Shown here in pieces: positions 419-63,737 of a stretch of 64,000 nucleotides of DNA (position 1 is the first letter of the stretch; each line of letters opens with the position of its first letter). The position numbers were made by a program, and so were the translations under genes. The notes under the pieces were generated by a model. The model was not told where the DNA came from and ran no database searches. It saw only the letters and a list, made by a program, of their open reading frames with translations. The DNA comes from Salminus brasiliensis (taxonomy: Eukaryota > Chordata > Actinopteri > Characiformes > Bryconidae), in contig NC_132892.1 in NCBI RefSeq assembly GCF_030463535.1, positions 34,854,138 through 34,918,137 on the forward strand. Direction: 5' to 3'.

Positions 419-940
419 GTCTGCAGAACATCTTCCTGATCACCTCTAGGGGGAAGTATGAGCTGAGGGTTTACATGGAGGATTTTGAGAAAGGGAGTGT
501 GTACGCCCATTATAACTCATTCTACATCGACTCTGAGACCTACAGGTACAAGCTGCGCATCTCTGGCTTCATCAATGGAGGGGCAGGTGAGTGATTTTTT
601 TGAACATGGTCTGCAGTAGATTTGGCTGTTCTTTAAACATCTTCTATAGAATGACGTGACTTTATAAAATGCAGAGACTGAAAGCATAAGATCTTTTCCA
701 GGGGAGTCTTTATTCTATCACAATGAAAGGGAGTTTGCGACTTATGACCGAGACACCAACGGCTGTGCAGTGAGCAATTCTGGAGGCTACTGGTTCAACA
801 ACTGCCTCGTATCCAACACCAATGGCCTGTACAAGTGGGCACCTTCAGCTCCACAAAATGCAGCAGTTGTTTGGTGCAACTGGAAAGGCTGCAACTACTC
901 TCTGAAGACCATAGTGATGAAGATCAGACGAGCAGCTTAA
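419..940 (+). CDS. mfap4-like: F1: MFAP4-like FReD gene, 3' part only (last two exons)
   Basis: Two coding exons of a secreted fibrinogen-related-domain protein are visible: 419-586 (168 nt, phase 1 at both ends) and 702-940, ending in TAA. Both have clean AG/GT borders. The first encodes the [17 protein letters not shown] region through NGGAG. The second encodes [17 protein letters not shown] through [11 protein letters not shown]. Earlier exons would lie left of the window. Both exons and the intron between them are almost identical to F2 and F3, but the sequence before about 388 and after about 948 is different, so homology to F2/F3 stops abruptly. It shares the F2/F3 oddities: CLVSNTNG in place of the usual CHxANxNG pocket motif, and an extra WCNWKGC cysteine pair. 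The product is probably a secreted lectin-like or matrix protein; function is inferred from the family. Confidence 0.85.
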
Positions 941-1417
941 GAGCAGGTCTGCAGCTCAAGATTTATAATGATAAATATTCTATAGATTAGAATTTCCTGC
1001 AATCTGTTTAATCAGTAACCTTTTAGGTCATTGCCGAGATGTTTATAAAAACATGCACAGAATTAATCTATGCATCTTCAGACAACTGATATTTTGTAAT
1101 CCTGTTTGTGGTGATTTATAATGTTATACATTTTTGGGGATTATTTTTCCTTTTCCTATCAAAAGCATTAAAAAATGATGATTAACTTTGTTGAACTGAC
1201 TAATTCATTCACTATGATTTATAAGTGTGATCAGAACAGATTTTGGTAATAATAATTTAAAATAGTCTCAGTTATGAAGCACAGACTGGGGATTAGTCGG
1301 AACACACCTGCAGATTGCAAACACATACAATATACACAATCATGTTACATTAGACACATTTAAGACAAACAGGACATTTGGGCAAAAACTGGGGAAAAGA
1401 AAGGAAACTAAGGGAAG
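941..1417 (+). other. 3' flank of F1
   Basis: AT-rich sequence without a coding signal. An ATTAAA at about 1168 could be the polyadenylation signal of F1. This flank is not related to the 3' flanks of F2/F3. Confidence 0.4.
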
Positions 1418-1453
1418 AATTGTTGGTACCCCTCGGTTAATGAAAGAAAACCC
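1418..1453. repeat. Stray fragment of a Tc1 terminal repeat
   Basis: The stretch (attgttggtacccctcgg and following) repeats the inner part of the terminal repeat of the Tc1 element that starts at 1530. It sits outside that element and is separated from it by about 75 bp that form an inverted repeat with the other flank. Confidence 0.65.
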
Positions 1454-1457
1454 GACA

Positions 1458-3150
<1,693 letters not shown>

Positions 3151-3838: not shown

Positions 3839-3839
3839 G

Positions 3840-6237: not shown

Positions 6238-6244
6238 TTAAACA

Positions 6245-6440: not shown

Positions 6441-6526
6441 GAATATGGAAATAACTAATGGATGCACATAATAAAAAAACAAAAAACAAATTAAGAAATA
6501 AAAGTAAACCTAACTGAACCGAACTG

Positions 6527-8589: not shown

Positions 8590-9900
8590 ATGGTAAGACC
8601 ATAAACTTTATTTTAGCATAAAGATTCATCATTATAAAATATATGCATATTCATATTTTTCTGCATTGATTGTTTAAAGTTTTATTAGTTATTTTAAAAC
8701 TCACTTTTACCTAAACATTAGTTAGTTTGTCTGATTGACACATTTATGTCTCCTGTTTCAGCTGGTGCTGTTCTTAGTTCTTCCCCTGGTGGTGCAGTCT
8801 GCACCTGCCTCCAACGCCTCCACCCTGCCTCTGGACTGTGAAGATGTTTATAACAATGTCTCCGTGAACACTGGTGTCTACACCATCTACCCAGGAGGAC
8901 CCGATAAACCAGTGCAGGTTTACTGTGACATGGGTTGTGATGAAGACCGAGGGAGGTGGACTGTGAGTGGAAAAGCTTAAGACTGAATAAACCTGATAAA
9001 CAATGATGTAATGTCTCATAATAGTGTTTTGGTGACTTTTTACTCTCCACCTGTCTCTCTTAGGTGTTTCTGAGGAGAATGGATGGCAGTGTGAATTTCT
9101 ACAGACCTTGGGAGGAGTACAAGAATGGCTTTGGGAATGCAAGCACTGAATACTGGCTGGGTGAATGAGTGGCATTTTGTAAATACTTTTGTAATCTGCT
9201 GTCACTTTTACCTTGAGTAGAAGTTGCACCACTGATGTTGAAGGTGATAAATAAAGATTTGATGGATTAGATTGATTAGATTCCTCAATCTATTTTGGAA
9301 TTTGGTAATTTGAGTCTATCATTAACTTAAGAGATACCAGGAAACTGACCATGTTAAATGTCCTTCTATGTCTGACAGGTCTGCAGAACATCTTCCTGAT
9401 CACCGCTAGGGGGAAGTATGAGCTGAGGGTTTACATGGAGGATTTTGAGAAAGGGAGTGTGTACGCCCATTATAACTCATTCTACATCGACTCTGAGACC
9501 TACAGGTACAAGCTGCACATCTCTGGCTTCATCAATGGAGGGGCAGGTGAGTGATTTTTTTGAACATGGTCTGCAGTAGATTTGTTTGTTCTTTAAACAT
9601 CTATTGTAGAATGACGTGACTTTATAAAATGCAGAGACTGAAAGCATGACATCTTTTTCAGGGGAGTCTTTATTCTATCACAATGAAAGGGAGTTTGCGA
9701 CTTATGATCGAGACACCAACGGCTGTGCAGTGAGCAATTCTGGAGGCTACTGGTTCAACAACTGCCTCGTATCCAACACCAATGGCCTGTACAAGTGGGC
9801 ACCTTCAGCTCCACAAAATGCAGCAGTTGTTTGGTGCAACTGGAAAGGCTGCAACTACTCTCTGAAGACCATAGTGATGAAGATCAGACGAGCAGCTTAA
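8590..9900 (+). CDS. mfap4-like: F2: MFAP4-like secreted FReD protein, 235 aa
   Basis: Coding exons are 8590-8592 (start codon alone, in leader exon 8571-8592), 8762-8962, 9064-9160, 9379-9546 and 9662-9900 (TAA), all with AG/GT borders. The joined frame is 235 residues. Residues 1-19 form a signal peptide ([11 protein letters not shown]). The FReD runs from the LPLDCEDVY segment to the end, with [37 protein letters not shown] and the C-terminal [11 protein letters not shown]. Differences from a standard FReD are an extra Cys in CDMGC, a calcium loop reading DRDTNG instead of DKDQDS, a pocket motif CLVSNTNG instead of CHxANxNG, and two more Cys in WCNWKGC, giving seven cysteines in the mature part. 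AATAAA at 10139-10144 is the likely polyadenylation signal. Role: probably a secreted pattern-recognition or matrix glycoprotein; altered binding is inferred. Confidence 0.9.
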
Positions 9901-10270: not shown

Positions 10271-11100
10271 ACACGACAAAATTGTTGGTACCCCTCGGTT
10301 AATGAAAGAAAGACCCACAATGGTCACAGAAATAAATTGAATCTGACAAAAGTAATAATAACTAAAAATGCTATGAAAATTAACCAATGAAAGTCAGACA
10401 ATGCTTTTCAACCATGCTTCAACATAATTATTTAAAAAATGAAACTCATGAAACAGGCCTGGACAGAAATGATGGTACCCATAACTTAATATTTTGTTGC
10501 ACAACCTTTTGAGGCAATAACTGCAATCAAATGATTCCTGTAACTGTCAATGAGACTTCTGCACCTCTCAGCAGGGATTTTGGCCCACTCCTCATGAGCA
10601 AACTGCTCCAGTTGTCTCAGGCTTGAAGGGTGACTTTTCCAGACGGCATGTTTCAGCTCCTTCCAAAGATGCTCAATAGGATTTAGGTCAGGGCTCATAG
10701 AAGGCCACTTCAGAATAGTCCAATGTTTTCCTCTTAGCCATTCTTGGGTGTTTATAGCTGTGTGTTTTGGGTCATTATCCTGTTGCAAGACCCATGACCT
10801 GTGACTGAGACAAAGCTTTCTGACACTGGGCAGCACATTTCTTTCTAGAATCCCTTGATAGTCTTGAAATTTCATTGTACTCTGCACAGATTCAAGACAC
10901 CCTGTGCCAGATGCAGCAAAGCAGCCCCAGAACATAACAGAGCCTCCTTCACAGTAGGGACAGTGTTCTTTTCCTGATATGCTTCATTTTTCCATCTGTG
11001 AACATAGAGCTGATGTGCCTTGGCAAAAAGTTCCATTTTCATCTCATCTGTCCATAGGACATTCTCCCAAAAGCTTTGGTGCTTGTCAACATGTAGTTTG
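10271..11100 (-). mobile_element. Tc1 family A element, 5'-truncated, transposase C-terminal half open
   Basis: One terminal repeat is present at 10271-10460 (gacaaaattgttggtacccc). An open minus-strand frame, 10935-10486, encodes 149 residues of the transposase: GCFAASGTG, then [10 protein letters not shown] and [11 protein letters not shown], with exactly 34 residues between catalytic Asp and Glu (DD34E). Transposase-like sequence continues to about 11100 and stops there; the first catalytic Asp and the second terminal repeat are missing. Confidence 0.85.
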
Positions 11101-13510: not shown

Positions 13511-15086
<1,576 letters not shown>

Positions 15087-15508: not shown

Positions 15509-16871
15509 ATGGTAAGAGCATAAACTTTATTTTAGCAAAAAAAATTGAACTTTATAATATATACAGTATATTATAATACATATATTATATGATTTTACAA
15601 AGTGTCACTAGTTCTTGTAAAACTTTAAAGTTATTGTTACTAAAACATTAGTTATATCATTTTAACTCACTGAGTTATGTCTTTATTTTATTTCTCCTCT
15701 CTCAGCTCCTTCTGTTTCTAGTGCTCCCCCTGGTGGTGGAGTCAGCTCCTGCCTCCATTGACTTTCTGCCTCTGGACTGTGAAGATGTTTATAACAATGG
15801 CTCAGTGAACACTGGTGTCTACACCATCTACCCAGGAGGACCCAATAAACCAGTGCAGGTTTACTGTGACATGGGATGTGATGAAGACCGTGGGAGGTGG
15901 ACTGTGAGTGGAAAAGCTTAAGATAAAATAAATCTGATAAATAATGATGTAATGTTTCATAATAGTGTTTAGGTTCATTCGTAATTGTCCTTCTAGGGTT
16001 TTATAAACACTTTTACTCTCCACCTGTCTCTTAGGTGTTTCTGAGGAGAATGGATGGCAGTGTAAATTTCTACAAGCCTTGGGAGGAGTACAAAAATGGC
16101 TTTGGGAATGCGAGCACTGAATACTGGCTGGGTGAATGAGTGGCATTTTGTAAATACTTTTGTAATCTGCTGTCACTTTTACCTTGAGTAGAAGTTGCAC
16201 CACTGATGTTGAAGGTGATAAATAAAGATTTGATGGATTAGATTGATTAGATTCCTCAATCTATTTTGGAATTTGGTAATTTGAGTCTATCATTAACTTA
16301 AGAGATACCAGGAAACTGACCATGTTAAATGTCCTTCTATGTCTGACAGGTCTGCAGAACATCTTCCTGATCACCGCTAGGGGGAAGTATGAGCTGAGGG
16401 TTTACATGGAGGATTTTGAGAAAGGGAGTGTGTACGCCCATTATAACTCATTCTACATCGACTCTGAGACCTACAGGTACAAGCTGCACATCTCTGGCTT
16501 CATCAATGGAGGGGCAGGTGAGTGATTTTTTTGAACATGGTCTGCAGTAGATTTGGCTGTTCTTTAAACATCTTCTATAGAATGACGTGACTTTATAAAA
16601 TGCAGAGACTAAAAGCATAAGATCTTTTCCAGGGGAGTCTTTATTCTATCACAATGAAAGGGAGTTCGCGACTTATGACCGAGACACCAACGGCTGTGCA
16701 GTGAGCAATTCTGGAGGCTACTGGTTCAACAACTGCCTCGTATCCAACACCAATGGCCTGTACAAGTGGGCACCTTCAGCTCCACAAAATGCAGCAGTTG
16801 TTTGGTGCAACTGGAAAGGCTGCAACTACTCTCTGAAGACCATAGTGATGAAGATCAGACGAGCAGCTTAA
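15509..16871 (+). CDS. mfap4-like: F3: MFAP4-like secreted FReD protein, 234 aa
   Basis: Coding exons are 15509-15511 (ATG, leader exon 15489-15511), 15706-15903, 16035-16131, 16350-16517 and 16633-16871 (TAA). The frame gives 234 residues with a signal peptide ([14 protein letters not shown]) and a FReD from LPLDCEDVY to IRRAA. From exon 3 (16035) onward, exons and introns are almost identical to F2, whereas the signal-peptide exon and the earlier introns differ clearly. The same [19 protein letters not shown] and WCNWKGC peculiarities occur. AATAAA at 17117-17122 is the likely polyadenylation signal. It is probably a secreted lectin-like protein like F2; the two may differ mostly at the N-terminus and in expression. 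Confidence 0.9.
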
Positions 16872-17267
16872 GAGCAGGCCTGATGAGTAGCTTTCAGCTG
16901 AAGATTAGAAGAAATTCAGGTGATTACTGTAGAAATATCTAATTTCGGAGAAAGCTATAACATATCTATACTCGCAGTGATCAAGGGTTACATATCATAT
17001 AAAACCTTATATAATGCTCTCTTCTACATTGTTCAAATTTCTTTGGTGACTGTTTACACTGTAGGTTTTGTTGTAATTTCTCTTGAACTTTCTCTTCTTT
17101 CTCATGAAAATGGCTGAATAAAAATATTATAAGTCATTTTGTTGGTCGACTTATTTATCTACAGAGACGTAGGTTACAAATCTAATTTAAGGTCATGTAG
17201 AGGCATGAGCAAACAAGACTTCTAACAAAGAGAACACATAAAAATATAGAGACAATATAGGTACATA

Positions 17268-18862
<1,595 letters not shown>

Positions 18863-18864
18863 TA

Positions 18865-20160
18865 TTTCCATGATTAGAAAAATTCTCAAAAGTTAGACTG
18901 CAGCCTGGTTTTCTCTTAAACTAAATACAAAAGCATAAACCATTTCTTCTGGACCCCAAAAATTAAACTCACATTTGCTCCATCCTAAACTGTGGTGGCT
19001 GATATTTTACTGTTGTCTTCTTCAGCTTTGACCCAAATGCTAATAAACCCTCTTCTTTATTTAAAGATCTGAAGCTTAAGTATAGTAAAAAATATATATA
19101 TAGGTGCCATCTTAAATCTCAATTTAAGGAGTTTAAACTAGTATAGTGAACTAGTTAACTGAATATAATTCAGTTAAATTTAATTTGATGTCATGTTTGC
19201 CAAATCCTTAGTTATGTTCAGTGGGGGATTATTCTACATTGGAATAGATCAAAACAAACACAGACCTCACTGTTAACCCTGATGACAAAAACTGGTGGAT
19301 CTGGATGTTTAAAGATGGTAGTGGAGTTAAACGCTACTTCTTCCACCTGGAAGTTCTATGCAAGCCTTTTGGCTGTTCCTTTATAGAAATTAATCATAGA
19401 AGCAGTGATACTACTATAACCCCAAATGGACCTATAGTGGAAAAGCCTAAACATCGCTTAAACTCTTTAACAGGAATGGCCAGTTAAGACTTTTTCATCC
19501 TAATACATTAATTATAAAGTAAACCAGTGAAGACCTCCCACACATGCCTGAGTTTCTAGTTCAGGAGGATAAATAAAAATGTCTTGAATATATTCTAAAA
19601 CAACCCAAGTGGATCATGTAAAACATCAATAATTAATTCTAGGAAGACCAATGGGGTGGTATATAGATCAAAAGACATGCCTTGGTATTCATACTGCCTG
19701 TAATTGAAGATAAAAGCTGTCTTCCAATCACATACTACATGTTTCAGATAAGGTTGCAGACACTTCTCAGGTCTAATTGTATAATAATAACCTCATAAAG
19801 CTGTTCTAATAAGATGAGATAAGATAATCCTTTATTAGTCCCACAGTGGGGAAATATCAGTGACAATGGTTGAGAGTATGACTTGGAGATTTGATAGGGT
19901 GATTTTAGCAAACGTTTTAAGGAGAATTTCTACCATAACCTTAAAATTTGGTGGAATGAACTGCTATATCAAGGTAATACAAAACGTTATTATGACAGAA
20001 TGGGGACCAGGATATGAACTCCTGTTAAGACCAAGAGATGAAGGGATCATGTTGTTATAACTGGGAAAATCCTAAGATAACAGCTTATTTGCAGAAGGCA
20101 AATACAAAAAGGCTAAGAAGCTTGGGTTGTGTTTTTCATAGGTTCAGTTACTGTGATAAT
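18865..20160. other. Intergenic; no gene recognised
   Basis: 19020-19110 matches 11101-11190 downstream of F2. A 60-residue open stretch at 19305-19487 has no recognisable domain and is probably chance. 19812-19860 (ttattagtcccacagtgggg) resembles the 3' tail of a common fish retroelement on the minus strand. Confidence 0.4.
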
Positions 20161-20416: not shown

Positions 20417-20767
20417 TACATTGGCATGTAAAAGTTTATGCACCCCTCATAATTTTTTTTACTGTAGTTCAGTGTCTAAAGTATAAACCAAACTCACAAA
20501 CATCATTAAAGAAGTTAAAGATGAAACATTTTAATATCAATTTTATTGCTTTATGTTCATTTTAGACATTGAAAATTCCCAAAACAAAACTGAAAGAATA
20601 TTATTTCCTGCAAAAGTGTTTATCAGCTGTGATTTTCCTTTTTAAACTGCAATAGATGGAAATAAAATGTAATGTTCATCTTTGTATATTTTGAAATCAA
20701 GTAATAACTATTTAACTATTCACAGAAATTTCAAGGAAGGGTGCCCAAACTTTTGCATGCCACTTAT
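20417..20767. mobile_element. Short Tc1-like element, family B
   Basis: The left end includes ggcatgtaaaagtttatgca and the right end reads gggtgcccaaacttttgcat, inverted to each other, with about 350 bp in total. It is a third copy at the same relative position as those before F2 and F3. Confidence 0.6.
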
Positions 20768-20960
20768 GCATCTTAAACCCATGGTCTTTAAAAACTGTAT
20801 CTCTCAGAGATTTTGCAATGTTCTGATGAAATCATTTTTACATTTCCTTGGAAAATGTCTTGCCAGTTTCTTCCTGTAGCATGAGACACATCTTTTGTTA
20901 GTTCTTTTGGATTTTACTGGTTGTGTTTCAAAGCCCCAGGGAAAAGATCATATGAGAACG

Positions 20961-21191
20961 TATAAAAGGAGCGTTGGGAACATCACTTAACTGCATTTGG
21001 ACGTAGTTGCAAGAGGACTGAGAGGTTCTCTTTACCTGCCCTGGTGAGTGTCTTTCTATTTGCTCTAACAAGATATTCCACAGCAAGAGAACCAACTGTA
21101 AACATCTCCGTTAGGATTATTTAAGACATGATAAGTCATTTTTTGTGTTTTTGTATTTCTTCCTTACAGATAAAAGGACTGCATTAACATG
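20961..21191 (+). pseudogene. F4: orphan promoter plus leader exons without a FReD body
   Basis: TATAAAA at 20961-20967, exon 1 ending at 21043 before GTGAGT, and exon 2 at 21170-21191 ending in ATG are clear copies of the F2/F3 5' end. No signal-peptide or FReD exon follows before the unrelated F5 leader at about 22635. The exon 2 donor carries an extra G (catgggtaag instead of catggtaag), which would shift the frame if GTAAG is used. It is most likely the head of a lost gene copy; it could still fire a transcript that splices into F5. Confidence 0.7.
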
Positions 21192-22580: not shown

Positions 22581-22635
22581 TTTAAAGGGGTGGTTGTGAG
22601 CAAAGAAATGAACATTGGATAGCTCGCACCAAATG
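22581..22635 (+). promoter_or_regulatory. F5 core promoter and leader exon 1
   Basis: A weak TATA-like TTTAAAG at 22581-22587 precedes a leader ending at 22635 (caaatg before GTGAGT). The same block with TTTAAAAG lies at 40093-40147 (F7). Two upstream starts exist: ATG at 22608 (four codons, then TAG) and ATG at 22633-22635, which after splicing to exon 2 would stop after seven codons. Confidence 0.5.
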
Positions 22636-22861
22636 GTGAGTTGTATTTTACCTCTTTAGTACAGTAAGTAACCATGATCTGACCAGATTCATAGGAAAAT
22701 GTTTTTAGCAGACTGCTACACTGTCTAAATATTTAGTTTTTTCTAAATATGATTTTAAGTGTTTTATTTAAGTCTAATTTTTATTTGCTTTTATTTTATG
22801 GTCCATTTTAGGTTCAGAAGTTGAACGATTGAGCTACAGAGAAAATATTATAAAGTCCAAA

Positions 22862-40518: not shown

Positions 40519-40600
<82 letters not shown>

Positions 40601-40859
40601 AGATTATTATCAGACAGTCAACAGTTTCAGTAATAGGGATTAAACTGGTACCAGTCCTATGTACATTTATACCTGGCAATTCTTACATTCCTTACTCTAT
40701 ACTTGCATTCATTACTTGAAAAGTTTATACCAAGTAATAAGAGGAAAAAATACATTTTAATCACTTTACTTATTTGAATGTTATTGTTTCTTATGACTAT
40801 TATTATTACACTTATTATACATCAAAAAAAGTAATGAGATCCACATGTTGATTACCTCC

Positions 40860-40899
<40 letters not shown>

Positions 40900-45200: not shown

Positions 45201-45500
45201 CTGTTGTCTGATACATGCACAGGCAGGCAGATTTATTTGCAGAATGGCTTTAAAAAGTGGTAAAGGGGATATTTGTAAAGGCCATTTACATTTACATTTA
45301 TATTAAACGTTCTATTCCAGAGCTACTTACAGAACAGCTTCCCTGTTTACTCAGAAATTACCCTCAGCTAGTCTATATTGGTTTCTTTAGGTGATACCAG
45401 TCACTTTTCAGTTGAAAGAATAAGAAAGTGACCAATGAACAATGTTAGAAAAGATTTTTCACCAACAAAACATTAAAGAACTCACTGCTTGTCCTTGCAG

Positions 45501-45640
45501 GAGATGCTCTGGTCCACCATAATGGACAAAAGTTCTCCACATTCGACAAAGATCAGGATAGTAGCTCTGAAAACTGTCCCATGCTGTATTTTGGAGCGTT
45601 CTGGTACAACAACTGCCACCATGCTAACATTAATGTTAGC
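45501..45640 (+). pseudogene. F8: orphan, truncated last FReD exon
   Basis: Preceded by a good acceptor (ccttgcag), the exon is near-identical to the last exons of F5 and F7: [15 protein letters not shown], then [10 protein letters not shown]. It breaks at about 45635 and reads a stop a few codons later. The break coincides with a perfect 18-bp palindrome at 45623-45640. No middle FReD exons lie nearby. Confidence 0.85.
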
Positions 45641-48875: not shown

Positions 48876-50850
48876 ATGACAGTAAGTCTTTAAAACTTTT
48901 TGATTAGTCTAATAGACACTCTTAAAGGTGCCATAGGATGCATGTATTAAATGTTGTTAAAAGTTGTTGATGTTTAAATAGTAAATATGTGACTTTCAGT
49001 TGGTTAGCAGGCTGTTAAGGTTATCCTTTTTTGGGGGGTTTTTGTGGGTAAAAAATGCTAAGCTCTGCTCTGATTGGCTGGTTTACGGCACTGCAGCAGC
49101 TCACAGAAGGCACATGTTATAGCACAGCATAGTTATGGCAGCATCCCTGAGTCTTCCAGTTAGATTCAGCTAAGTGAGTCCAGTTTGTTTTGGTAGGACA
49201 ATGGAGAACAAAGGCGGCTTTTAGCCTAGCAGGGATCCTTTCTGCAGACACTGGCACAGGAAAAGCCACAGTCAGGAGACCTGGTTCCCATAGCAACCCA
49301 TATTCCCATAACTAGCCATCGACATCACGTTTTACCGTTTCATCAGCTTTGACCAGAGTTGTCCCTGGTGGGTGGAGTTTATGTAAATGTTAGGACTGTG
49401 ATGTGACAGTTTTGGGGGTTTGGAATTGGTCCATTTTACAGCTCTGTTGTGGTTCTGGTGGAACACCTGTGGTACCATAACAAAACCACGGCAACCACCT
49501 AGCAGCACCATAACAACCTTATCACAACTACTAAACAACTTTATCCACTTACTACTAAAGCAAATGCTTAGTAACATCATAGCAACCACCTAGCAACACC
49601 ATATCAACCACCTGTGGTACCATTGCAACCACTTAGCAGCACCCTAGCAATCACCTTATAACTACTAAACAACTTTACAGCCACCACCTATGAACATCAT
49701 AGCAACCACTTAAATTATCACAGCAACACAGCTTTGTTTTGTTTTGCTGGACCACCTGTGATACCTTATAGCAACCACCTAGCAGCACCATATCAACCAC
49801 CTCACATCTACTAAACCACTTTTTTCACCTACTACCAAAGTAACCACCTAGAAAAACAGTTTGTGACATCATATCAACCAACTGTGGTACCATAGCAACC
49901 ACCTGAAATACCATATTTTATGGCTATTTTGGGGGTTTTGTTGGATGTGCTTCTGAAGAAGTGTTAGAGGACCGTTTTTTTGTTGTTGTTGTCTTGTTTT
50001 GTTTCGCACTTTTTAGGGATTTTTAAAAACTGTCTTCTCTTTTTCCTCCAGCGCAGAGTGTTTCTGGCTCTAGTGCTCCCCCTGCTGGCTGGGAGCACCC
50101 CAGTTCTTCAGGAGCTGTTCCCAACAGACTGCTCAGATGTCTATGCTAACGGCCAAACACTGAGTGGAGTGTACACCATCTACCCTACTGGTGACACACC
50201 TGTACAGGTGTACTGTGACATGGGCTGTGAGGGCCAATCAGAGGATGCGAAGTGGACGGTATGTTGGACTGTATCTCTTTTAGATTAACTACAGTACTGA
50301 CGTCAAATAGTATCTGACCCAGTTGTTGTTGAATATAATTCACGATTTGTAATTATTATTATTGTTATGAGGGAAGTACTGACTAGCATGCAGTGGTATC
50401 CATGATAAATACGTACAACATACACTTGTTGTACTTCACGCTAGACAGCTCATACCTGCATCACACTTTTGTTTTTAGTGCATTTGTTGCCATTTGTATT
50501 CGTATATATTTGTTATTATCTCTGTATACATTTAATACACTTTACATAATTTAGATTATTTCATTTGACAAAGGTTCAAAGCGTCAGTTTCAGCGACAGT
50601 AATCAAAGCATTTCACTGCTAGTTGTACTGTGTAAAACTTTGAATGTGTGATTTAAAGAATTTGATGTCATACAGTATGAACGATTGTCTTTGATCTGAA
50701 GAAATCAATGTTCTCTGTGAACATCAGATGATCCAGCGGAGGATGGATGGGAGTGTAAACTTCTACAGGCCGTGGGAGCAGTACAAGAAAGGCTTTGGCA
50801 ACAAGCATGGAGAATACTGGCTGGGTGAGGACTTACTGTGATGCCATTCA

Positions 50851-50890
<40 letters not shown>

Positions 50891-52975
50891 TAATTGTAGA
50901 TCTATTATATGTATTTTTAATACTATATACTATAATAAAACAAGCAAATCAAGAGTTAAGAGAACAAAAAATTACAAAATGTTATCTGGACCATCTGGCC
51001 ACACTGGGCAATGTGATTTCTCAAAATATTCCTCAGAAAAGAGGAAAATTTAATATAATTTAAATAATTAAAATATCTGTAAAATGTCCAACTTAGGCTT
51101 TACTTTCAGTTTTAGGCTCGTCTACACGTATCTGCATTGACATGGTAAACAGTGGGATGTCAGTGTTTTGCTCATCCACATAAAACACTGAAGTTCTCAG
51201 AAACCTCCACCCTGGAGAGCGTTTTCAAACACCTTCTTTTTTAGTCTCTTAAAATCGTGTGTTCCTGTGGCTGGTATGGCAAACTGAGTAAGAACAGCTA
51301 CACTACATGTCCAAATGTTTGTGGACGCCCCTTCTTATGAATGCTTTCAGCTACTTTAAGTTGCATTCATTGCTGACACAGATGTGCAAATGCACACACA
51401 CAGCTTGTCTAGTCCCTGTAGAGAAGAAGTACTGCCAATAGAATAGGACTCTCTGGAGCAGATCAACATCATGACCCTATTGGCTCCATGCTGCCTAATA
51501 ATTCCAGGTGTGGACTAGAGGGGTATAAAGCCCCCCAGCATTGAGGAGCTGTGGAGCAGTGGAAGAGCTGTGTTGCTGAACGTAATCAAATTCTCACAGC
51601 AATGCTCCTCCAAACTCTAGTAGAAAGTCTTCTTCTCTGGACAGTAGAGACAGTTGCTCCAGTAAAAGCAGGATCAGCTCTTTTTAATACCCTTGATTTC
51701 AGAAGAAACAGTGAACGAGCAGGTGTCCCAATACTTTTGTCAATATAGTATATCTGGATATGTGTGGATGGGACCTACAAACAATGTTATATATAAAAAA
51801 TAAAAAATAAAAAAAATATATATATATATCGCTGCAGCTTGAAAATAAATATCACCTCTTGCACCTCCTGAACCTTCGCTAATACACCTTCCTCTTGTGC
51901 TCTTCAGGACTGGAGAACCTCTACCAACTCACCCGCAAAAGAAAGTACGAGCTGAGGGTGGACCTGCAGGACTTTGACGGGGCAAAAGTTTATGCTCAGT
52001 ACTCGGCGTTCTCTGTGGAATCAGAAACTGAGGGCTACAAACTCCACATTGCCGGCTTCACCAATGGAGGAGCAGGTGAGGAAGAAGACCAAATAGAAAG
52101 TGGTGTTGGTTCTCCATCACTGTGTTCATCATTAGAACATCTCCAAAGTTCTCCTCATGGAGTCTAGTATTATTTAGAGTTCTCCTCAGATCAACACCTG
52201 GTTTGGTGGTAAATCAGGGCTTAATGATGGTAAATCAGGTGAGCTGCTGCTGCTGCTGCTGCTGCTGCTGATGGAGTTGAACACATCCTCCACGCTGTGC
52301 TGGCTGGACTGGGGGGCGTCCAGGAGAACCCTGGAGGAGTCGAGCTCTGTTCTTCAGACTAGCTCACCGACAAGATCTCACTACTTTCTTTCTTCAGAAT
52401 GAGAAGCTCCTGCTATAGTACAAAACCTCTCTCTTTTTGAGTACAGTTGTGCAGTACACTTCACAGTGATTTGTAAGGTTTGTATGGAAATGCAAAAAAC
52501 TTGTATCTCCAAAACATTACCTTTATAGGCGATAGAAAAAGTACTTTCTATTGGTCGGTTCATCATTAAATTCCGGTACAGTATAAAGAACAACTCCCAG
52601 ATTCACTTTATGGAAAAAAGTGGAAAATTACAGAAATTTGAGATACAAGGTGTTTGCATAACACCAACTAATTGGAAAGTGTGCCTGTAGTGACAGACCC
52701 TCTTGTTTGCAGGTGACTCTCTGGAAATAAGTAATGGACAGAAGTTCTCCACCTTGGACAAAGACCAGGACTCTAATAAAGATGGGAATTGTGCCAAGAC
52801 CTACCTCGGTGGATTTTGGTACAATGCCTGCCACTACGCCAACCCCAATGGTGTATATCTGTGGGGACAGGAGGGCCATGCTTTTGCCATTGGAAACGTG
52901 TGGTACCACTGGAAAGGCCATGATCATAGTCTACAATTCATCAGTATGAAGATCAGACCTGTGTCTCAGACTTAA
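48876..52975 (+). CDS. mfap4-like: F9: MFAP4-like secreted FReD protein, 246 aa
   Basis: Coding exons are 48876-48881 (Met-Thr, leader exon 48842-48881), 50052-50258, 50728-50824, 51908-52075 and 52713-52975 (TAA). The frame is 246 residues. The signal peptide is [16 protein letters not shown]. The FReD begins at [13 protein letters not shown] and has [43 protein letters not shown] and [12 protein letters not shown]. It also has a DKDQDSN calcium-type loop and a pocket motif [13 protein letters not shown], and ends KIRPVSQT. The first residue of the 97-nt exon is Met (atgatccag) where paralogues have Val. AATAAA at 53127-53132 is the likely polyadenylation signal. It is the closest relative of F10. 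Introns carry an L2 relic, a CAACCACCTAG-type repeat, a TA microsatellite and a MITE. Confidence 0.9.
49440..49915. repeat. Tandem-like repeat of 'catagcaaccacctagcaac' words
   Basis: Degenerate units such as catagcaaccacctagcaac and 'cacctgtggtaccat' alternate for about 470 bp within F9 intron 2. Non-coding. Confidence 0.75.
50852..50888. repeat. (TA)n microsatellite
   Basis: Perfect TA run shortly after the 97-nt exon of F9. Confidence 0.9.
51299..51752. mobile_element. MITE in F9 intron 4
   Basis: The left end cactacatgtccaaatgttt and the right end tcccaatacttttgtcaata (to about 51750) are diverged inverted copies. It is related to the element at 25805-26346. A piece of its interior (acacacagcttgtctagt) recurs at about 60383. 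Confidence 0.7.
52243..52270. repeat. (CTG)n microsatellite
   Basis: Trinucleotide run in F9 intron 5. Confidence 0.9.
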
Positions 52976-54673: not shown

Positions 54674-57600
54674 ATGACAGTGAGTGTTAGCATTCTTTAT
54701 TGTCTTTGTTGAATGTTCTAGCCTATGTATTACCAGGAACCATGCCTTTAAGTGTATTCTGTAACATACTGGTGTAAGGATTTCAGAAAGGGCCTGATGT
54801 GCTCCCTTATTTATCCCTTATTTACTCTTAATTAAAACTCTGGCAGCTGCATTTTCTGAGTCCTGGAAAACCTGGAAAGTCATGGAAAATAAACATGCTA
54901 AAATCCAGTACTGAATAGTAATGAAACATAACAAATAAAATAGTACTTAAAAGTCTTGGACAGTATTGTAATAAGCTCCTGCCATCATTTTACATAATAA
55001 TATAAAACACAAACTTTTACAGTAGCATCATTTTTTTCATTTCATATGACCATGCACGGGTTTGGCTGTGGCATCATGAACGTGCATTAGACAGTCTATC
55101 AGCTGCTAGCGTGGATTTAACATTTTTTGTCCTGGAATTCAAGACGTTGGAATTCAGGACGTTTTTTCAGTACTTGAAAAGTCATGGAAAGTGCTTCATT
55201 TTGAACCAGCTGGGCGAATAGTAGAGTGGTCACCTTACCGACTTTGTTTAGTAGAGTCTAAGCTTAGAGTTATCTTTAAATTTGTCTATTTAAACTAGCT
55301 GAGGTTTTCTTGGGTAAATAGCAAAGCACTTTTGTAAGTCGCTCTGGATAAGGGCGTCTGCTAAATGCCATAAATGTAAATGTAAACCAGCTGAAGCTGT
55401 TTGATTGTCTGATTGTAAAATTCTAATTACAGACCATTGCAGTAATGAATCCTGCTGGAAATAAAGGCAGGGATGAGTTTCTCCAGGTGTGGTTTAGTCA
55501 GAAAATCTCTAATGTTGTTGATCTTCTTAAGGTGAAAGAATGCTGATTTGTGCTTTGGGCACTTACACAGTAAGGGATCGTCATTATTTAAGCTAGGGAA
55601 CAAACAGATCTGTGTGCCATCTGCATAGCTATAGTAAGATTTGGCTATTTCTAAATATATACATTTGAATGTGGCATATATGAATTTGAGTGGCCCAAAA
55701 ATTGAATCCTGGGGGACACCACAGGTCACTGACACGGTTTCAGGGTCGTTTTAGGACCGTTTGTAAAAGTCCAACCCAGTTCTGAAGTCTATCTATGAGA
55801 AGTATATAGTCAATGGTGTCAAACACTTCAGTCTTTAGGTAACATTGGCCGTTATACTGAGCTGTTCCCAGCACTCTGAGATTGCAGATGGTCTTGTGTA
55901 TGAAAAAACTGTGTATCTGTGTGTGACCGCTTTTCCTATCCAGGGCAGAGTGTTTCTGGCTCTAGTGCTCCCCCTGCTGGTTGTGAGTACTCCTGTTTCC
56001 CAGGAGCAGTTTCCAACAGACTGCTCAGACATCCATGCTAATGGGCAAACACTGAGTGGAGCATACACCATCTACCCTACAACTGACACACCTGTACAGG
56101 TGTACTGTGACATGGGCTGTGAGGGCGGCCAATCAGGGGATGGGAAGTGGACGGTATGTTAGATTGTATCTCTCTGTTAGTTTCACTACAGTACTGAGGT
56201 CAAATCATATCTGACCGGTCGTTATTAAATAATGATATTGGTTTTTTCATGAGTGACACTATAGAGATATTAGTGATTATTGTTTTTGACTGAGGAAATC
56301 AATGTTCTCTGTGAACATCAGGTGATCCAGCGGAGGATGGATGGGAGTGTAAACTTCTACAGGCCGTGGGAGCAGTACAAGAAAGGCTTTGGCAACAAGT
56401 ATGGAGAATACTGGCTGGGTGAGGACTTACTGTGATGCCATTCAGTAGCTATTACAGATTAGAAACTCAAAATTATGATCTGAGGAGAAACATGACAACA
56501 AACAAACAAAGTCAATTTTAGAAATGTAACTAAACTATCAAGAATGTATGAAGAAGAATAGATACATTTAACAAACCGTGCACCCAATTTCCCTTAATTC
56601 ACATAATTAGCGTATTCAATTCTCAGTCTTTTGCAAACACAAGACTGCTTGTTTTTAAAATTGATTGTGAAGAAAAGTACAAACATTATGTATGCATGTA
56701 AAACTAATAAAATGAGCACTGTTAGATATCCATCCAAGCAATAGCTACACTGAATTTCATCTCTTTAGACTAGAGGTATTTCATAAAATTCAATAAGGTT
56801 CAAAAGTTTCTTATCATAAACACTAAACTGCTTATGATTTATTGCAATATCCTGTACACTGATGTAGCCTAGTAGCTTTATCATCATTTTATGTAGTCAA
56901 CCACTGAAGGTTAAATCAAATTGCAAATTCAATTTCAACAATATTTATGGTCAGTTTTCACACTGAACTGGAAGAATTATGAATAACAAATACTCTAAAT
57001 AAATGTTTTTTAGTAAAAATAAAAGTAAATAAAATAAAATAAAATAAATAAATTGATTGAAGAGCAGAACTTTATCCATAAACAGGCGCCATATTGAGAG
57101 TTATGAGTACTCCTATACATAATTTAACCAGAGACCAACTAGAGCAGGCTCTGCAGTGATTTTCCTAATCACACCAAATTTAGTTGTTAAATGGGATAAA
57201 GTCGATCTTAGTATTTCATCTCTTTAGACTAGAGGTATTTCATAAAATTCAATAAGGTTCAAAAGTTTCTTATCATAAACACTAAACTGCTTATGATTTA
57301 TTGCAATATCCTGTACACTGATGTAGCCTAGTAGCTTTATCATCATTTTATGTAGTCAACCACTGAAGGTTAAATCAAATTGCAAATTCAATTTCAACAA
57401 TATTTATGGTCAGTTTTCACACTGAACTGGAAGAATTATGAATAACAAATACTCTAAATAAATGTTTTTTAGTAAAAATAAAAGTAAATAAAATAAAATA
57501 AAATAAATAAATTGATTGAAGAGCAGAACTTTATCCATAAACAGGCGCCATATTGAGAGTTATGAGTACTCCTATACATAATTTAACCAGAGACCAACTA

Positions 57601-59344
57601 GAGCAGGCTCTGCAGTGATTTTCCTAATCACACCAAATTTAGTTGTTAAATGGGATAAAGTCGATCTTAGTATTTTAACAGTTCAAATGAACTAAAGTAA
57701 ACTATCATGAAACTTTCATGAAAATAAATAAATAAATACAAAAAGAAAAAGAGAAACTGAATTAAAAGCTAAATAAAGAAGTGTGTGCTGAGCATGCACG
57801 TGTAATAAAGGGTAGAAAAGCTTCTACTGTTTGTATAATTTATGAAAATGATTTGCAGAAAAAGTCAAAACATAGACAGATGCTCAGTAAAGTTTACAGA
57901 TGCTCGGCCATTAAGAGCTTTAAACACACTTTAACCCTTACAACTCCATTCTCGAAGATAACCAGTAACCAGTGCAGCTCTCATAGTACAGGGATGAAGT
58001 GCTGTGTCCGGACCAGTTTAACCGGGTTTATTCGACTGAAATAAATCAGTTCAAGGAAATAATGATTTAGAATTTAGTTAAATGTTTCTTTAAAAAAAAA
58101 ATAGTTCATCCGTTCAACCCAAAACAATGACTTCATGTATTAACAAGCATTTTTCAACTGTAGCATTTTTAAGCATTTTTCAACTGTAATTAAATTAAAA
58201 ATTATATTTAGTTAGTAAATAAATAACCTCTTTAATTTTAACTTTAATTTCTTGTTACAATGTAAAGTAATTTCTTTATGTTGAACAGCTGAACCACTTT
58301 CTCAAATTGTAAAAAGCTACTTTAGTGACTGCATTTACCAGAGAATTTATACAGAGAAAAGTGCAGAGTCTGGTTGCATACAGTAAAACTATCACATCAT
58401 GTAAGTGTATTTTTAAATGAAAACTAAAAAACATTGTGCAATGGCGCCACCATTTGGTCACACTGTGTAATGTGACTTAGCATTCCTCTTTACATTCAGT
58501 TTTAAGGGAAATAATATGAATACTGGAAAATGATTTTATACCACAGATTTGACATTTTATGAACCTTACTTAATAACCAAAAATCATAATACCTTAATTT
58601 TATACTTCCTAGGACTGGAGACCCTCTACCAACTCACCCGTAACAGAAAGTACGAGCTGAAGGTGGACCTGCAGGACTTTGAGGGAGGAAAGGCTTATGC
58701 TCAGTACTCGTCTTTTTCTGTGGAATCAGAAGCTGAGGGCTACAGACTTCATGTTGGTGGCTTCAGCAATGGAGGAGCAGGTGAGGGAGAATAAAATGAA
58801 CAGAAATAAAATTTGTAGCCAAAAATGTAGTAAAATGTGTAGTCATAAGTTCAGCTGTTCCATTCATGCTAATGCATAGGCACTTGTTCTCAATTATTAA
58901 GTCATTTTTAGGTCTTAAAAACGTAGTAATTAGAACAATAAGCTTTCAGATGTTTTAAACCCTTTACATAAATGTTTTTTATTTAATTAAATCACTTAAA
59001 GAATCCTTTAGAACATCTTCATTTAGACAAATCTAATAAATACAGAAAATACATCCATGCTTTTCTAACGGCCAAATATGTCTGTAGGTGATTCTCTGGA
59101 AACAAACAATGGGCAGAAGTTCTCCACCTTCGACAAGGACCAGGACTCTAATAAAGCTAGCAGCTGCGCCAAGGCCTACCTCGGAGGGTTTTGGTACAGT
59201 AGTTGCCATCATGCCAACCCCAACGGCATATATCTGTGGGGACAGGACAAAACCTATAATGCCATTGGAAATGTGTGGTATCACTGGAAAGGCTATGACT
59301 ATGGTCTCAAGGTCATCAGTATGAAGATCAGACCTGTGCCTTAG
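54674..59344 (+). CDS. mfap4-like: F10: MFAP4-like secreted FReD protein, 245 aa
   Basis: Coding exons are 54674-54679 (Met-Thr, leader exon 54625-54679), 55944-56153, 56322-56418, 58613-58780 and 59088-59344 (TAG). The frame is 245 residues. The signal peptide is [17 protein letters not shown]. The FReD begins at [13 protein letters not shown] and has [44 protein letters not shown] and [12 protein letters not shown]. It also has FDKDQDSN, the pocket motif [13 protein letters not shown] and a KIRPVP end. Intron 4 is enlarged by a perfect-looking 459-bp tandem duplication. No AATAAA is seen between the stop and the F11 exons 190 bp downstream; the first lies at 59806-59811. Confidence 0.9.
55315..55392 (+). 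mobile_element. SINE 3'-end relic
   Basis: gtaagtcgctctggataagg followed by 'gcgtctgctaaatgccataaatgtaaatgtaaa' is the 3' tail of the same SINE family as 29160-29398. Confidence 0.6.
55427..55810 (-). mobile_element. L2-like reverse-transcriptase relic in F10 intron 2
   Basis: The minus-strand frame 55735-55427 reads [24 protein letters not shown] and [12 protein letters not shown]. These match [19 protein letters not shown] and the F-SRLDYCN region of L2 reverse transcriptase, but the catalytic DD has become DG and several parts are missing. Confidence 0.75.
56754..57674. repeat. 459-bp direct tandem duplication in F10 intron 4
   Basis: Copy 1 is 56754-57212 and copy 2 is 57213-about 57674 (both begin atttcatctctttagactag). 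By eye the copies are identical base for base over nearly the whole length, so the event is very recent or an assembly artefact. Confidence 0.9.
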
Positions 59345-59533: not shown

Positions 59534-60141
59534 GTTGCCTAACACCTTCAGAATCAATGACAGTAAGTGCTGCCCCAGTGAACATGTCCATGTGGGCTCT
59601 GGATGGTCAGTCCAACAGGGAACCAGAACTTTTTGTCCTCAGGTTCCATGTTGGCCCCACATATGGATGCCCACCAGGGTCAGTGATGGGTCTAGGAGGT
59701 GTTGAACATGGGCCCCATCTGGGTTGTACACTGCATACAGGGCCCATGTGAGATTAAGATGTGCAGTAGTGATGGGGCCCATTTGGGAAGTCCAACTAGG
59801 TCCCAATAAAAATACAATGTACAAACCCACTCAGAGCCCATGACCACATGGACACCACCTAGCCCACCCAGATTTTCATTGATTTTCTTTATGTGTGTGT
59901 GTGTGTGTGTGTGTGTGCATTACTGTTTGCCCTCCAGGCTAGAGTGTTTCTGGCTCTAGTGCTCCACCTGCTGGTTGGATGCACCCTAGTTACTGAGGAG
60001 CCAATAGACTGCTCATACATGTACACTAACGGCCAAATTTTCAGTGGGGTGTACACCATCTACCCTACAAGTGACACATCTGTACAGGTGGACTGTGATA
60101 TGGGCTGTGATGGAGGTCGGTCACAGGATGTGAAGTGGACA
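59534..60141 (+). pseudogene. F11: truncated FReD gene (leader exon and signal-peptide exon only)
   Basis: Exon 59534-59562 ends in ATG ACA before GTAAGT, like the F9/F10 leader. Exon 59938-60141 encodes [37 protein letters not shown] and DVKWT before GTATGT. No 97-, 168- or last exon follows; telomere-like repeats come instead. The region before the leader resembles F10 intron 1, so the duplication joined F10's 3' end directly to F10-like intron sequence and left no promoter. Tyr before the CDM cysteine is replaced by Asp. A second partial copy of the exon end lies at about 60295-60345. It is probably a dead fragment, or an alternative 3' part of F10 transcripts. Confidence 0.75.
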
Positions 60142-60380
60142 GTATGTTAGACTGTACCATTATTAAATTATTTGCAGGATGAAGGTCACTAGTTCATTAG
60201 TTGTTGAATATGGGCCCCATCTGGGTTGTACACTGCATACAGGGCCTAGATGGGACCCCTGTGAGATTAAGGTGGGCTGTAGTGATGGGGCCATATGATA
60301 TGGGCTGTGATGGAGCTCGGTCAGAGGATGTGAAGTGGACGGTATGTTAGACTGTGCCATTATTAAATTATTTGCATACA
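59650..60380. repeat. Duplicated block around the F11 exon
   Basis: The stretch atgggccccatctgggttgt and its surroundings occur at about 59708-59780 and again at about 60208-60290, the second followed by a partial copy of the exon end and its donor (60297-60350). A (GT)n run lies at 59892-59917. Confidence 0.7.
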
Positions 60381-60739
60381 CACACAGCTTGTCTAGTACT
60401 CGTAGAGAAGTAATGCCAATAGAATAGGACCCCTAAAATTGTTCTAACTTTACCCCCATATGGCGCTCCGGGTGCAAATGTTAAATTCTTAAAACTGGCA
60501 TTGCCCAGTGATCACTTCTTCATGCTGTTATCTTCAGGGGTTCTTTTATCTACAGTCCTTTACTTGCTTATCGACTTGTGCTGTTTCACTGTTGTAGTCA
60601 CAGAGAAGATGTTGAGCAACAGTGGTGAGACAGCAGTTCAGCTTCTGGTCAGGGTCTGGTCACAGTACGTTCTCTTTTCTACAGCCTTTCATTTCATTCT
60701 AAATGTTAGCTGCTTGGATCCTTGCTCAGGATCAGGGTT

Positions 60740-61815
60740 AGGGTTAGGTTGTGGGTAAGGCTGGGTTAGGCTTAGGGTTGAGGTTGAGGTTAAGGTTAGG
60801 ATTAGAATCAGGGTTAGGGTTAGTTTTTGGGTTGAGGTTAAGGTTAGGATTAGGATCAGGGTTAGGGTTAGTTTGTGGTTGAGGTTAAGGTTAGGATTAG
60901 AATCAGGGTTAGGGTTAGTTTGTGGGTTGAGGTTAAGGTTAGGATTAGGATCAGGGTTAGGGTTAGTTTGTGGTTGAGGTTAAGGTTAGGATTAGAATCA
61001 GGGTTAGGGTTAGTTTGTGGTTGAGGTTAAGGTTAGGATTAGAATCAGGGTTAGGGTTAGTTTGTGGGTTGAGGTTAAGGTTAGGATTAGAATCAGGGTT
61101 AGGGTTAGTTTGTGGGTTGAGGTTAAGGTTAGGATTAGAATCAGGGTTAGGGTTAGTTTGTGGTTGAGGTTAAGGTTAGGATTAGGATCAGGGTTAGGAT
61201 TAGTTTGTGGGTTGAGGGTAAGGTTAGGATTAGAATCAGGGTTAGGATTAGTTTGTGGGTTGAGGTTAAGGTTAGGATTAGAATCAGGGTTAGGATTAGT
61301 TTTTGGGTTGAGGTTAAGGTTAGGATTAGGATCAGGGTTAGGGTTAGTTTGTGGGTTGAGGTTAAGGTTAGGATTAGAATCAGGGTTAGGGTTAGTTTGT
61401 GGGTTGAGGTTAAGGTTAGGATTAGAATCAGGGTTAGGGTTAGTTTGTGGGTTGAGGTTAAGGTTAGGATTAGAATCAGAGTTAGGGTTAGTTTGTGGGT
61501 TGAGGTTAAGGTTAGGATTAGGATCAGGGTTAGGGTTAGTTTGTGGGTTGAGGTTAAGGTTAGGATTAGAATCAGGGTCAGGGTTAGTTTGTGGGTTGAG
61601 GTTAAGGTTAGGATTAGAATCAGGGTCAGGGTTAGTTTGTGGTTGAGGTTAAGGTTAGGATTAGAATCAGGGTTAGGGTTAGTTTGTGGGTTGAGGTTAA
61701 GGTTAGGATTAGGATCAGGGTTAGGGTTAGTTTGTGGGTTGAGGTTAAGGTTAGGATTAGGATCAGGGTTAGGGTTAGTTTGTGGTTGAGGTTAAGGTTA
61801 GGATTAGGATCACTT
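60740..61815. repeat. 48-bp minisatellite with telomere-like TTAGGG cores
   Basis: About 22 units of 47-48 bp run in tandem. Each holds a 'tcagggttagggttag' core and a 'gaggttaaggttaggatta' part. The 48-bp period is a multiple of three, so long open frames of repeated 16-residue words (VRIRIRVRVSLW) appear on + and mirrored ones on -; these are not genes. Units ending 'gtggttgagg' are one base short and shift the frame. Confidence 0.95.
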
Positions 61816-62128
61816 TGTGTAAAGGGTTCGCCAATTATAATGATTTTACACTCACATCTCTTTTGCAAAAGTGTTTTATCTATGGCATCACTCACAGAAC
61901 CCTCTGCAGGACCTTTTTCAACAGTGTAGATGATCTGTAGGAGCTCTGTTCTGCAGTTTAACAGCTGGGTACCTGAGCTGTACCGTACAGAAATGAATGC
62001 TAGCAGTTGAACTGCGTCAGCTTGTGTGAAATCAGTCGGCTTATCTGAAGTACATAAAAAAACAGGTGTATAAACTCCCACACAGTATGGGCACATGCAC
62101 CCACTTGATAAATGTCCTTCAACTGGCC

Positions 62129-62178
62129 TATAAAAGCCAGAACCACCCAAAAAGAAAACCCAGAAAATGAAGATGAAG
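62129..62178 (+). promoter_or_regulatory. F12 core promoter and first exon
   Basis: TATAAAAG at 62129-62136; ATG at 62167-62169 and the donor at 62179, so the first exon is short and carries Met-Lys-Met-Lys. The leader is unlike that of any other array member. Confidence 0.7.
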
Positions 62179-63737
62179 GTGAGTATGTACCATAGCAGCA
62201 GATCAGGTCTGCAGGTCTTTTTTTTTTTTTAAAGTTAAACTCCAAAAAGTGACGGTAACATGAAAAGCCAAAGCTTCTGGCTATAAATGAGAATTAATTA
62301 AAAATCCAATATCAGCCTTTATTGATCGTATTACTTCATTAAGACCGCAAATGAAAGGTTTTAATTAACCATTTACTTCCCTCTGTAAACAGGCTTTTGC
62401 TGCCCTGCTGTTCCTTCTCCCCATTGCCATCCACTCTCAGCTTTCGCTGCCACTGGACTGCACCGACATCCACAACCATGACAAAACCCAGCCCAGCGGA
62501 GTGTACACCATCTACCCAATCGGAGCCACATCAGCTGTTCGGGTGTACTGTGACATGGACACAGGGGGTTGGACTGTGAGTATTGATTCAGATCATCCAA
62601 TCACGAAGTGCACCCTCTATCACATATCACAATATGTATCACAATGCTGACCTCTTTCAGGTCTTTCAGAGGAGAATGGATGGTAGTGTCAATTTCTACA
62701 GAGGCTGGGACTATTATAGAGCAGGCTTTGGGTTTGCAGATGGAGAATACTGGCTGGGTGAGTCAAGCAAATTTGGTAGTGGAATTTATAGTAGATACTG
62801 AATAATTTATAGTAGATACTGAATAATTTATAGTAGATACTGAATTATTTATAGAAGATACTGAATAATTCATAGTAGATACTGATTTTTTTATAGAAGA
62901 TACTGAATAATTCATAGTAGATACTGAATCATTTATAGTAGATACTGAATCATGTATAGTAGATACCAAATCATTAATAGTAGATACTGAATAATTCATT
63001 GTAGATACTGAATCATTTATAGAAGAAAATGAATAATTCATAGTAGATATTGAATCATTTATAGAAGATACTGAATAATTCATAGTATATACTGAATCAT
63101 TTATAGAAGAAAATTAATAATTCATAGTAGATACTCAATAATTTATAGAAGATACTGAATAATTCATAGTAGACACTGAATCATTTATAGTAGATACTGA
63201 ATCATTTATAGTAGATACTGAATCATTTATAGAAGATACTGAATAATTCATAGTATATACTGAATCATTTATAGAAGAAAATGAATAATTCATAGTAGAT
63301 ACTGAATCATTTATAGTAGACACTGAATAATTCATAGTAGATACTGAATCATTTATAGTAGATACTGAATAATTCATATTGGATACTGAATCATTTATAG
63401 TAGTACTGAATAATTCATAGTGGATACTGAATCATTTATAGTAGATACTGAATAATTCATAGTGGATACTGAATCATTTATAGTAGATACTGAATTATTC
63501 ATCGTAGATACTGAATCATTTATAGTAGATACTCTGCTGCTGGTCACCATGCATGTGTGTGGTGTTCAGGACTGGAGAACCTCTTTCACCTGACTCTGAG
63601 GAAAAAATATGAGCTGAGAGTAGACATGGAGGACTGGAATGGAGAGAGGGTTTTTGCTCAGTACTCCTCATTCTCTGTGGATCCAGAGAGCTTTGGTTAC
63701 ACTCTGTATGTGAGTGGTTTCAGTGATGGAGGAGCAG
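62167..63737 (+). CDS. mfap4-like: F12: MFAP4-like secreted FReD protein, 3' end beyond the window
   Basis: Coding exons are 62167-62178, 62393-62575, 62661-62757 and 63570-63737 (donor GTCAGT); the last exon lies beyond 64000. The signal peptide is [19 protein letters not shown]. The FReD starts at [12 protein letters not shown] and has [39 protein letters not shown] and [14 protein letters not shown]. It is the only member with the standard CDMDTGGWT junction, without the extra Cys and insertion seen in F2-F11, so it looks like the ancestral type or a separate orthologous group. A 21-bp minisatellite fills most of its third intron. Confidence 0.88.
62785..63540. repeat. 21-bp minisatellite in F12 intron 3
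   Basis: Units 'gatactgaatcatttatagta' and 'gatactgaataattcatagta' alternate, about 35 copies, partly in 42-bp pairs; degenerate copies continue after the next exon to the window end. Minus-strand open frames with NYSVSTIND words are by-products. Confidence 0.95.

Follow-up and report, generated by a model that had tools for sequence, protein, structure and literature searches.

The window analysed here, a stretch of 64,000 nucleotides of the Salminus brasiliensis genome (C15:34854138-34918137 of 1.07 Gb; positions below count from its first base), carries the same four coding exons of a fibrinogen-related domain (FReD) again and again along its plus strand, and the question that it raises is what kind of genes these exons form and how the copies came to differ. 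They very probably constitute a tandem array of teleost MFAP4-like genes that has been duplicated, constrained, and reshaped by gene conversion and by probable exchange of 3′ exons. The array would have grown by duplication, with the reading frames held by purifying selection, and conversion together with probable 3′ exon exchange would have left the copies differing most, within the domain, in the exon of the binding pocket.

The recurring exons were located by tblastn with exon peptides and by exon profile scans, and tblastn with the exon peptides of one copy recovered the remaining copies. Seven of the predicted genes (B, C, D, E, F, H, and I; 234-246 residues) are complete, all seven with frames open from ATG to stop, and a GT donor and an AG acceptor are present at every intron of the modelled window genes. 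Exon 3 measures 97 nt in all eight, and exon 4 168 nt in all nine, of the window genes that contain the exon concerned, with matching phases. The first coding exon, which encodes M, MM, MT, or MKMK, was placed via splice consensus, position, and recurrence among copies, and was left out for genes A, K, L, M, and Z. An initial annotation of the window had described seven loci with a full FReD exon set, two loci cut by the edges (A and J), and equal exon sizes and phases, within a span of 419-63737; the models bear out each of these points, the span running from the first base of exon 4 of gene A to the last base of exon 4 of gene J. The window genes, all on the plus strand, are as follows.

419-940, plus strand: gene A, cut by the window edge; exon 4 419-586, exon 5 702-940, with exons 2-3 upstream of the window.
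8590-9900, plus strand: gene B, complete, 235 residues; exons 8590-8592, 8762-8962, 9064-9160, 9379-9546, 9662-9900.
15509-16871, plus strand: gene C, complete, 234 residues; exons 15509-15511, 15706-15903, 16035-16131, 16350-16517, 16633-16871.
22633-25531, plus strand: gene D, complete, 242 residues; exons 22633-22635, 23972-24181, 24268-24364, 24740-24907, 25281-25531.
31199-38398, plus strand: gene E, complete, 241 residues, start codon unsure; exons 31199-31204, 31315-31515, 32275-32371, 37901-38068, 38145-38398.
40145-42774, plus strand: gene F, complete, 242 residues; exons 40145-40147, 40915-41124, 41215-41311, 42013-42180, 42524-42774.
48876-52975, plus strand: gene H, complete, 246 residues; exons 48876-48881, 50052-50258, 50728-50824, 51908-52075, 52713-52975.
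54674-59344, plus strand: gene I, complete, 245 residues; exons 54674-54679, 55944-56153, 56322-56418, 58613-58780, 59088-59344.
62167-63737, plus strand: gene J, exons 1-4; 62167-62178, 62393-62575, 62661-62757, 63570-63737, with exon 5 beyond the edge, from 64534.

Each gene would encode one signal peptide (a hydrophobic N-terminus, judged by eye) and one FReD, with no further domain and no collagen-like or coiled-coil part; no collagen-like region precedes the FReD in the array genes, exon 2 passing directly from the signal peptide into the domain. Both the calcium loop and the pocket for the ligand (S1) fall within the last exon. Upstream of gene B, a TATA box and an apparent non-coding exon are present.

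Scanning of the flanks with the exon profiles (60 kb upstream and 140 kb downstream of the window) completed A and J and added genes K, L, and M on the plus strand as well as an inverted copy, Z. Twelve genes lie head to tail on the plus strand, from window position -776 to about 98917 (~100 kb), and Z lies 93 kb further on, on the opposite strand (191967-195017), for a total of 13 genes. No stop occurs from exon 2 to the terminus in any of the 13, including the six completed outside the window. Because four N runs, 17,666 bases in sum, lie between M and Z, this number is a lower bound. A weak exon-3 trace (65982-66035, 0.003) was found between J and K; in the 60 kb scanned upstream, no profile hit ahead of A reached 0.01. 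When exon 5 was queried against the whole genome and all 60 candidates were scored, 42 matches resulted, 14 of them at the array locus, namely the 13 genes and a relic at 45500. Eighteen matches score at least as high as the weakest array gene, and the four outside the array are genes on C2, C1, and C6 and, at C15:6.90M, a frame without introns. Those on C1 and C6 have FIBCD1-like exons, with two FIBCD1 genes assembled from separate exon stretches in this genome, and loci on C9 and C20 resemble tenascins by similarity, a label that in part we presume. The C2 gene is MFAP4-like:

C2:55899900-55903700 (L029), minus strand: MFAP4-like gene; pocket region shortened, exon 4 with the 5-residue insert known from human MFAP4.

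With respect to family identity, Pfam Fibrinogen_C was found in both of the proteins scanned (1.6e-65 and 7.9e-76), and human MFAP4 was the best PDB match (2e-79 for gene D, 1.3e-63 for gene B). A 20-sequence tree, which takes in the array genes together with human MFAP4, the C2 gene, FIBCD1, ficolin-2, and the C20 gene, places all 13 of the array in a single group with human MFAP4 and the C2 gene (86/85); the FIBCD1 clade (100/99) does not include the array, and ficolin-2 and the C20 gene also stand apart. Three features of the human protein are missing: RGD occurs in none of the 13 array genes from exon 2 onward; no Cys lies between the signal peptide and the first FReD Cys of the array proteins, and hence no equivalent of C34, the cysteine of the dimer disulphide (gene E has one Cys within the signal peptide itself); and all 13 lack the five residues inserted in exon 4 of human MFAP4, FIBCD1, and the C2 gene. 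An extra Cys follows the CDM motif in 12 of the 13, J being without it. Because of these three absences, the array genes are best described, judging from their sequences, as MFAP4-like and not as MFAP4 orthologues; the label MFAP4-like in the initial annotation is upheld, since the whole-protein best match and the tree agree on it in spite of what is missing.

The same absences favor a rather unlikely alternative, in which the array is a separate fish FReD lineage, the true MFAP4 orthologue is the C2 gene, and MFAP4-like function is not implied. However, the tree unites the array with human MFAP4 and the C2 gene, a grouping of the MFAP4s with FIBCD1 to the exclusion of the array is rejected (p 0.034), and a pair of human MFAP4 and the C2 gene was not recovered, though not rejected (p 0.19). 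The C2 gene may be the true MFAP4 orthologue, and since such a separate MFAP4-like gene exists elsewhere in the S. brasiliensis genome, caution is needed before fish genes named mfap4 are equated with the human matrix gene as its orthologues.

Within the array of MFAP4-like genes, the tree distinguishes A, B, and C together with K, L, and M (100/99), D with F (100/99), and H, I, and Z (91/94), with E joining the D/F/H/I/Z genes weakly (81/83) and J unplaced. In human MFAP4 numbering, the loop D191-C199 is shortened in A, B, C, K, L, and M (6 of 13), with residue D191 present and D193 gone; both residues are present in genes D, E, F, H, I, and Z, and D191 is replaced by E in gene J. At the position after C212, nine of the 13 genes have a histidine, as do human MFAP4, FIBCD1, and ficolin-2, and the remaining four (A, B, C, and J) have a leucine; in other FReDs this pocket histidine presumably contacts acetyl groups. 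Cysteines occur at 236 and 241 in A, B, and C, and a single cysteine at 237 in K, L, and M. Between A/B/C and K/L/M, exon 5 shows a synonymous divergence (dS) of 1.0-1.4 and a nonsynonymous divergence (dN) of 0.37-0.40 in all nine pairs, and, with no stop in any gene, this pattern indicates that the altered-pocket class is not decaying. Constraint between B and C was also considered as proof of the altered pocket being kept, and was set aside as too strong, exon 5 of these two genes differing by two changes alone, both silent.

The pocket bears on a further alternative, namely that the array is mainly structural and encodes matrix proteins like mammalian MFAP4 rather than immune lectins. Human MFAP4 is a matrix protein that interacts with fibrillin-1 and tropoelastin, and mutation of F241 strongly weakens or abolishes its binding to tropoelastin and collagen I, according to passages of PMC11091212. 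This alternative is distinctly improbable, given that RGD is missing, that F241 is retained in only 2 of the 13 array genes (D and F), and that, in passages of the review PMC9265350, teleosts are described as having several mfap4 genes with macrophage expression and response to infection, and tilapia MFAP4 as having agglutination and phagocytosis-promoting activity. By analogy with such fish MFAP4 proteins, the products of an MFAP4-like array would be secreted and oligomeric, with macrophages as their main source and with microbial or matrix ligands. The innate-immune or matrix role suggested in the initial annotation likewise draws on published work in other fishes.

The coding sequence of the array is under purifying selection. 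Between groups, 65 of 68 pairs have a domain dN/dS of 0.11-0.32 (dS being saturated in the other three), with dS values of 0.85-3.1, and within the close groups (A/B/C, D/F, H/I/Z, and K/L/M) the ratio is 0.09-0.60 (10 pairs), the top values being those of K versus L and M. A comparison of the four domain exons puts the highest dN in exon 5 for 62 of 78 pairs; no nonsynonymous change separates the close pairs of A/B/C and D/F in this exon. Superimposed on this divergence are tracts of near or complete identity that fit gene conversion. B and C share an identical run of 443 bp (9142-9584) covering the end of exon 3, all of intron 3, and exon 4, which was matched by 0 of 2000 shuffles, with identity down to 67% upstream and 88-100% downstream; D and F share an identical run of 259 bp from intron 4 into exon 5; and in H and I silent divergence is 0 in exon 3 versus 0.59 in exon 5, with 165 of 170 positions identical in the exon-3 tract versus 637 of 751 in the other three matching stretches (Fisher 1.2e-6, on local matches). 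That copy number is partly an assembly artefact of split haplotypes is highly improbable: a perfect 459-bp tandem duplication (56754-57675), the near-identical tracts of A, B, and C, and the N runs between M and Z would fit it, but the fall to 67% between B and C is hardly expected of haplotypes, and between-group dS is 0.85 or more. Birth, death, and conversion of copies, as proposed in the initial annotation, are seen in the relics listed below and in these tracts; its term "active" holds for the tracts and for some recent pairs but not for the groups, which, with a silent divergence of 0.85-3.1 outside the close groups, are old and have been kept under constraint.

The first and last exons of the domain group the 13 genes differently. 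In the exon 2 tree, D, F, H, I, and Z are grouped (97/94) and a group of E, H, I, and Z is rejected (post hoc p 0.009), and in the exon 5 tree E, H, I, and Z are grouped (91/92) and D, F, H, I, and Z rejected (post hoc p 0.029); neither exon 3 alone nor exon 4 alone decides the grouping. An inserted residue and an AIGNVW stretch in exon 5 are common to E, H, and I, and the tails of exon 2 are longer in D, F, H, and I than in E. We infer from these patterns that recombination caused the conflict. The idea that gene E alone is a chimera was rejected: with 13 genes, the conflict takes in E, D/F, and H/I/Z together, and any of these groups may have received the foreign exon. A more speculative proposal, which we regard as unlikely, is that the last exon is a swappable binding-pocket cassette that paralogues exchange, the 5′ exons retaining separate histories, and that about half of the array (A, B, C, K, L, M, and partly J) forms a distinct FReD class, with a short calcium loop, cysteines new to the pocket, and, for A, B, C, and J, no histidine in it, that would bind calcium-independently or modulate the intact copies. 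If so, the array would be a vertebrate counterpart of the diversified fibrinogen-related immune repertoires of invertebrates.

Several observations weigh against the main reading, an MFAP4-like array reshaped by conversion and probable exon exchange. The exon-1 calls of the gene models have only position and splice consensus as their basis. Support for the family node is no better than 86/85, several long branches were flagged by the tree tool, and the tree neither recovers nor rejects (p 0.44) a clade of the array excluding the C2 gene; exon 5 of gene I, taken alone, is slightly closer to techylectin-5A than to MFAP4 (77.5 versus 75.6 bits). The shuffles used for identical runs ignore slower substitution in exons, although the B-C tract does span a whole intron. 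The exon-conflict p-values are post hoc because the contrast was first seen in smaller trees, they carry no multiple-test correction, and in those earlier trees exon 5 just failed to reject D, F, H, and I (p 0.058). In addition, the PU.1-type word GAGGAAGT is not enriched in the window (2 occurrences versus 2.28 expected).

Broken copies are also present in the window:

20681-21202, plus strand: relic of an A/B/C-type copy, comprising its promoter and the region of exon 1; no exon 2 found downstream.
26731-26871, plus strand: weak relic of an H/I-type exon 5; DNA match to gene H exon 5 at 26806-26871 (7.5e-9), not significant in the protein profile scan (1.2).
27302-27444, minus strand: relic of an A/B/C-type exon 2; protein profile 1.2e-5, DNA 2.6e-8.
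45500-45634, plus strand: relic of a truncated D/F-type exon 5; 160-bp match with 97.5% identity to both D and F.
59557-60344, plus strand: relic with a possible exon 1 at 59557, an exon 2 (59938-60144), and, at 60297-60344, a weak and partial second copy of exon 2; no exons 3-5 found.

Three relics had been reported previously without coordinates, and are taken here to be those on the plus strand at 45500-45634, 59938-60144, and 26731-26871. The earlier description of a same-strand array is correct for all the window genes and incomplete for the relics, given the exon-2 relic on the minus strand. As to search noise, the exon profiles were derived from the array exons themselves, and true exons score 5e-22 to 3e-48 in the window scan; in 20 dinucleotide shuffles 59 hits fell below 1 but not one below 1e-3, and since the best of them reached 0.086, window hits of 0.5-1.2 are at noise level.

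The window also contains repeats and mobile elements. A Tc1/mariner element (17265-18865) has 205-bp inverted ends (88.8%) with TA on both sides and an uninterrupted transposase open reading frame within 17484-18620 on the minus strand, and partial relatives with support from Pfam occur at 2250-2654, 10486-10983, and 13854-14252. The 5.5-kb intron 3 of gene E contains, in antisense orientation, a LINE frame of 958 residues with endonuclease and reverse transcriptase (33869-36745, minus strand). Intron 1 of gene I contains a UnaL2 LINE 3′ element (55321-55374, plus strand), and the 459-bp tandem duplication, in intron 3 of the same gene, is either very recent or an assembly artefact. A minisatellite with a 48-bp unit and telomere-like GGGTTA words (60734-61812) lies shortly past the last exon-2 relic, and a 21/42-bp tandem repeat (62783-63533) makes up most of intron 3 of gene J. 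A tRNA scan of the window found nothing, and Rfam found a LINE 3′ element alone. Outside the window, the interval from M to Z holds two frames of intermediate-filament (keratin-like) type and one of CAMSAP type (L022:3974-4912, L023:3141-3896, and L024:7287-9023, minus strand), and a fish-type NLR frame with FISNA and NACHT (L028:9103-9999, plus strand) lies about 8 kb past Z.

By gene-naming practice, the numbers of the zebrafish mfap4 genes would stand for tandem duplicates, and the numbered genes mean that, as in the array, there are several MFAP4-type genes per fish genome. In passages of the respective papers, zebrafish mfap4.1,.2,.4,.7,.8, and.10 are listed among the genes of a macrophage cluster (PMC10427629), and mfap4.1 is described as upregulated in M1 macrophages (PMC11505477). 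A statement in PMC7366704 that zebrafish has a single MFAP4 orthologue sits uneasily with these numbered genes (PMC10427629). Five MFAP4 transcripts in channel catfish, 36-51% identical to human MFAP4 and induced by infection, are summarized in a passage of PMC9265350 (Niu 2011), and are like the array in representing several divergent MFAP4-type genes. Further passages of PMC9265350 report teleost MFAP4s as being without RGD, and suggest MFAP4-type proteins as possible substitutes for the ficolins that teleosts lack. Because of these reports (PMC9265350, PMC10427629, PMC11505477, each as far as the passages go), a multigene mfap4 group in fish is an already known kind. The array is therefore ordinary in kind, and the pattern in the binding exon is its less expected part. 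Among the matches listed from the open-access literature, no title dealt with an array of MFAP4 genes in fish, with a class of altered pockets, or with a conflict between exons, which is weak evidence of absence. With its copies resolved exon by exon into intact, converted, possibly mosaic, and broken ones, the array leads directly to the question of whether pocket diversity is selected.

Among known FReD proteins, FIBCD1 and ficolin-2 have FReDs with an S1 pocket and a calcium site. Their FReDs are like those of the array (40-54% identity), with FIBCD1 nevertheless forming a clade of its own. Human MFAP4 (7zmk, 8un7) resembles the array proteins in consisting of a signal peptide and one FReD with four conserved cysteines, and its domain is 46-57% identical to those of the nine window genes (A and J being partial). 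Elastic-fibre binding and a calcium-dependent octamer are further traits of MFAP4. Human MFAP4 differs from the array proteins in having RGD, C34, and the exon-4 insert, whereas the extra Cys after the CDM motif belongs to the array.

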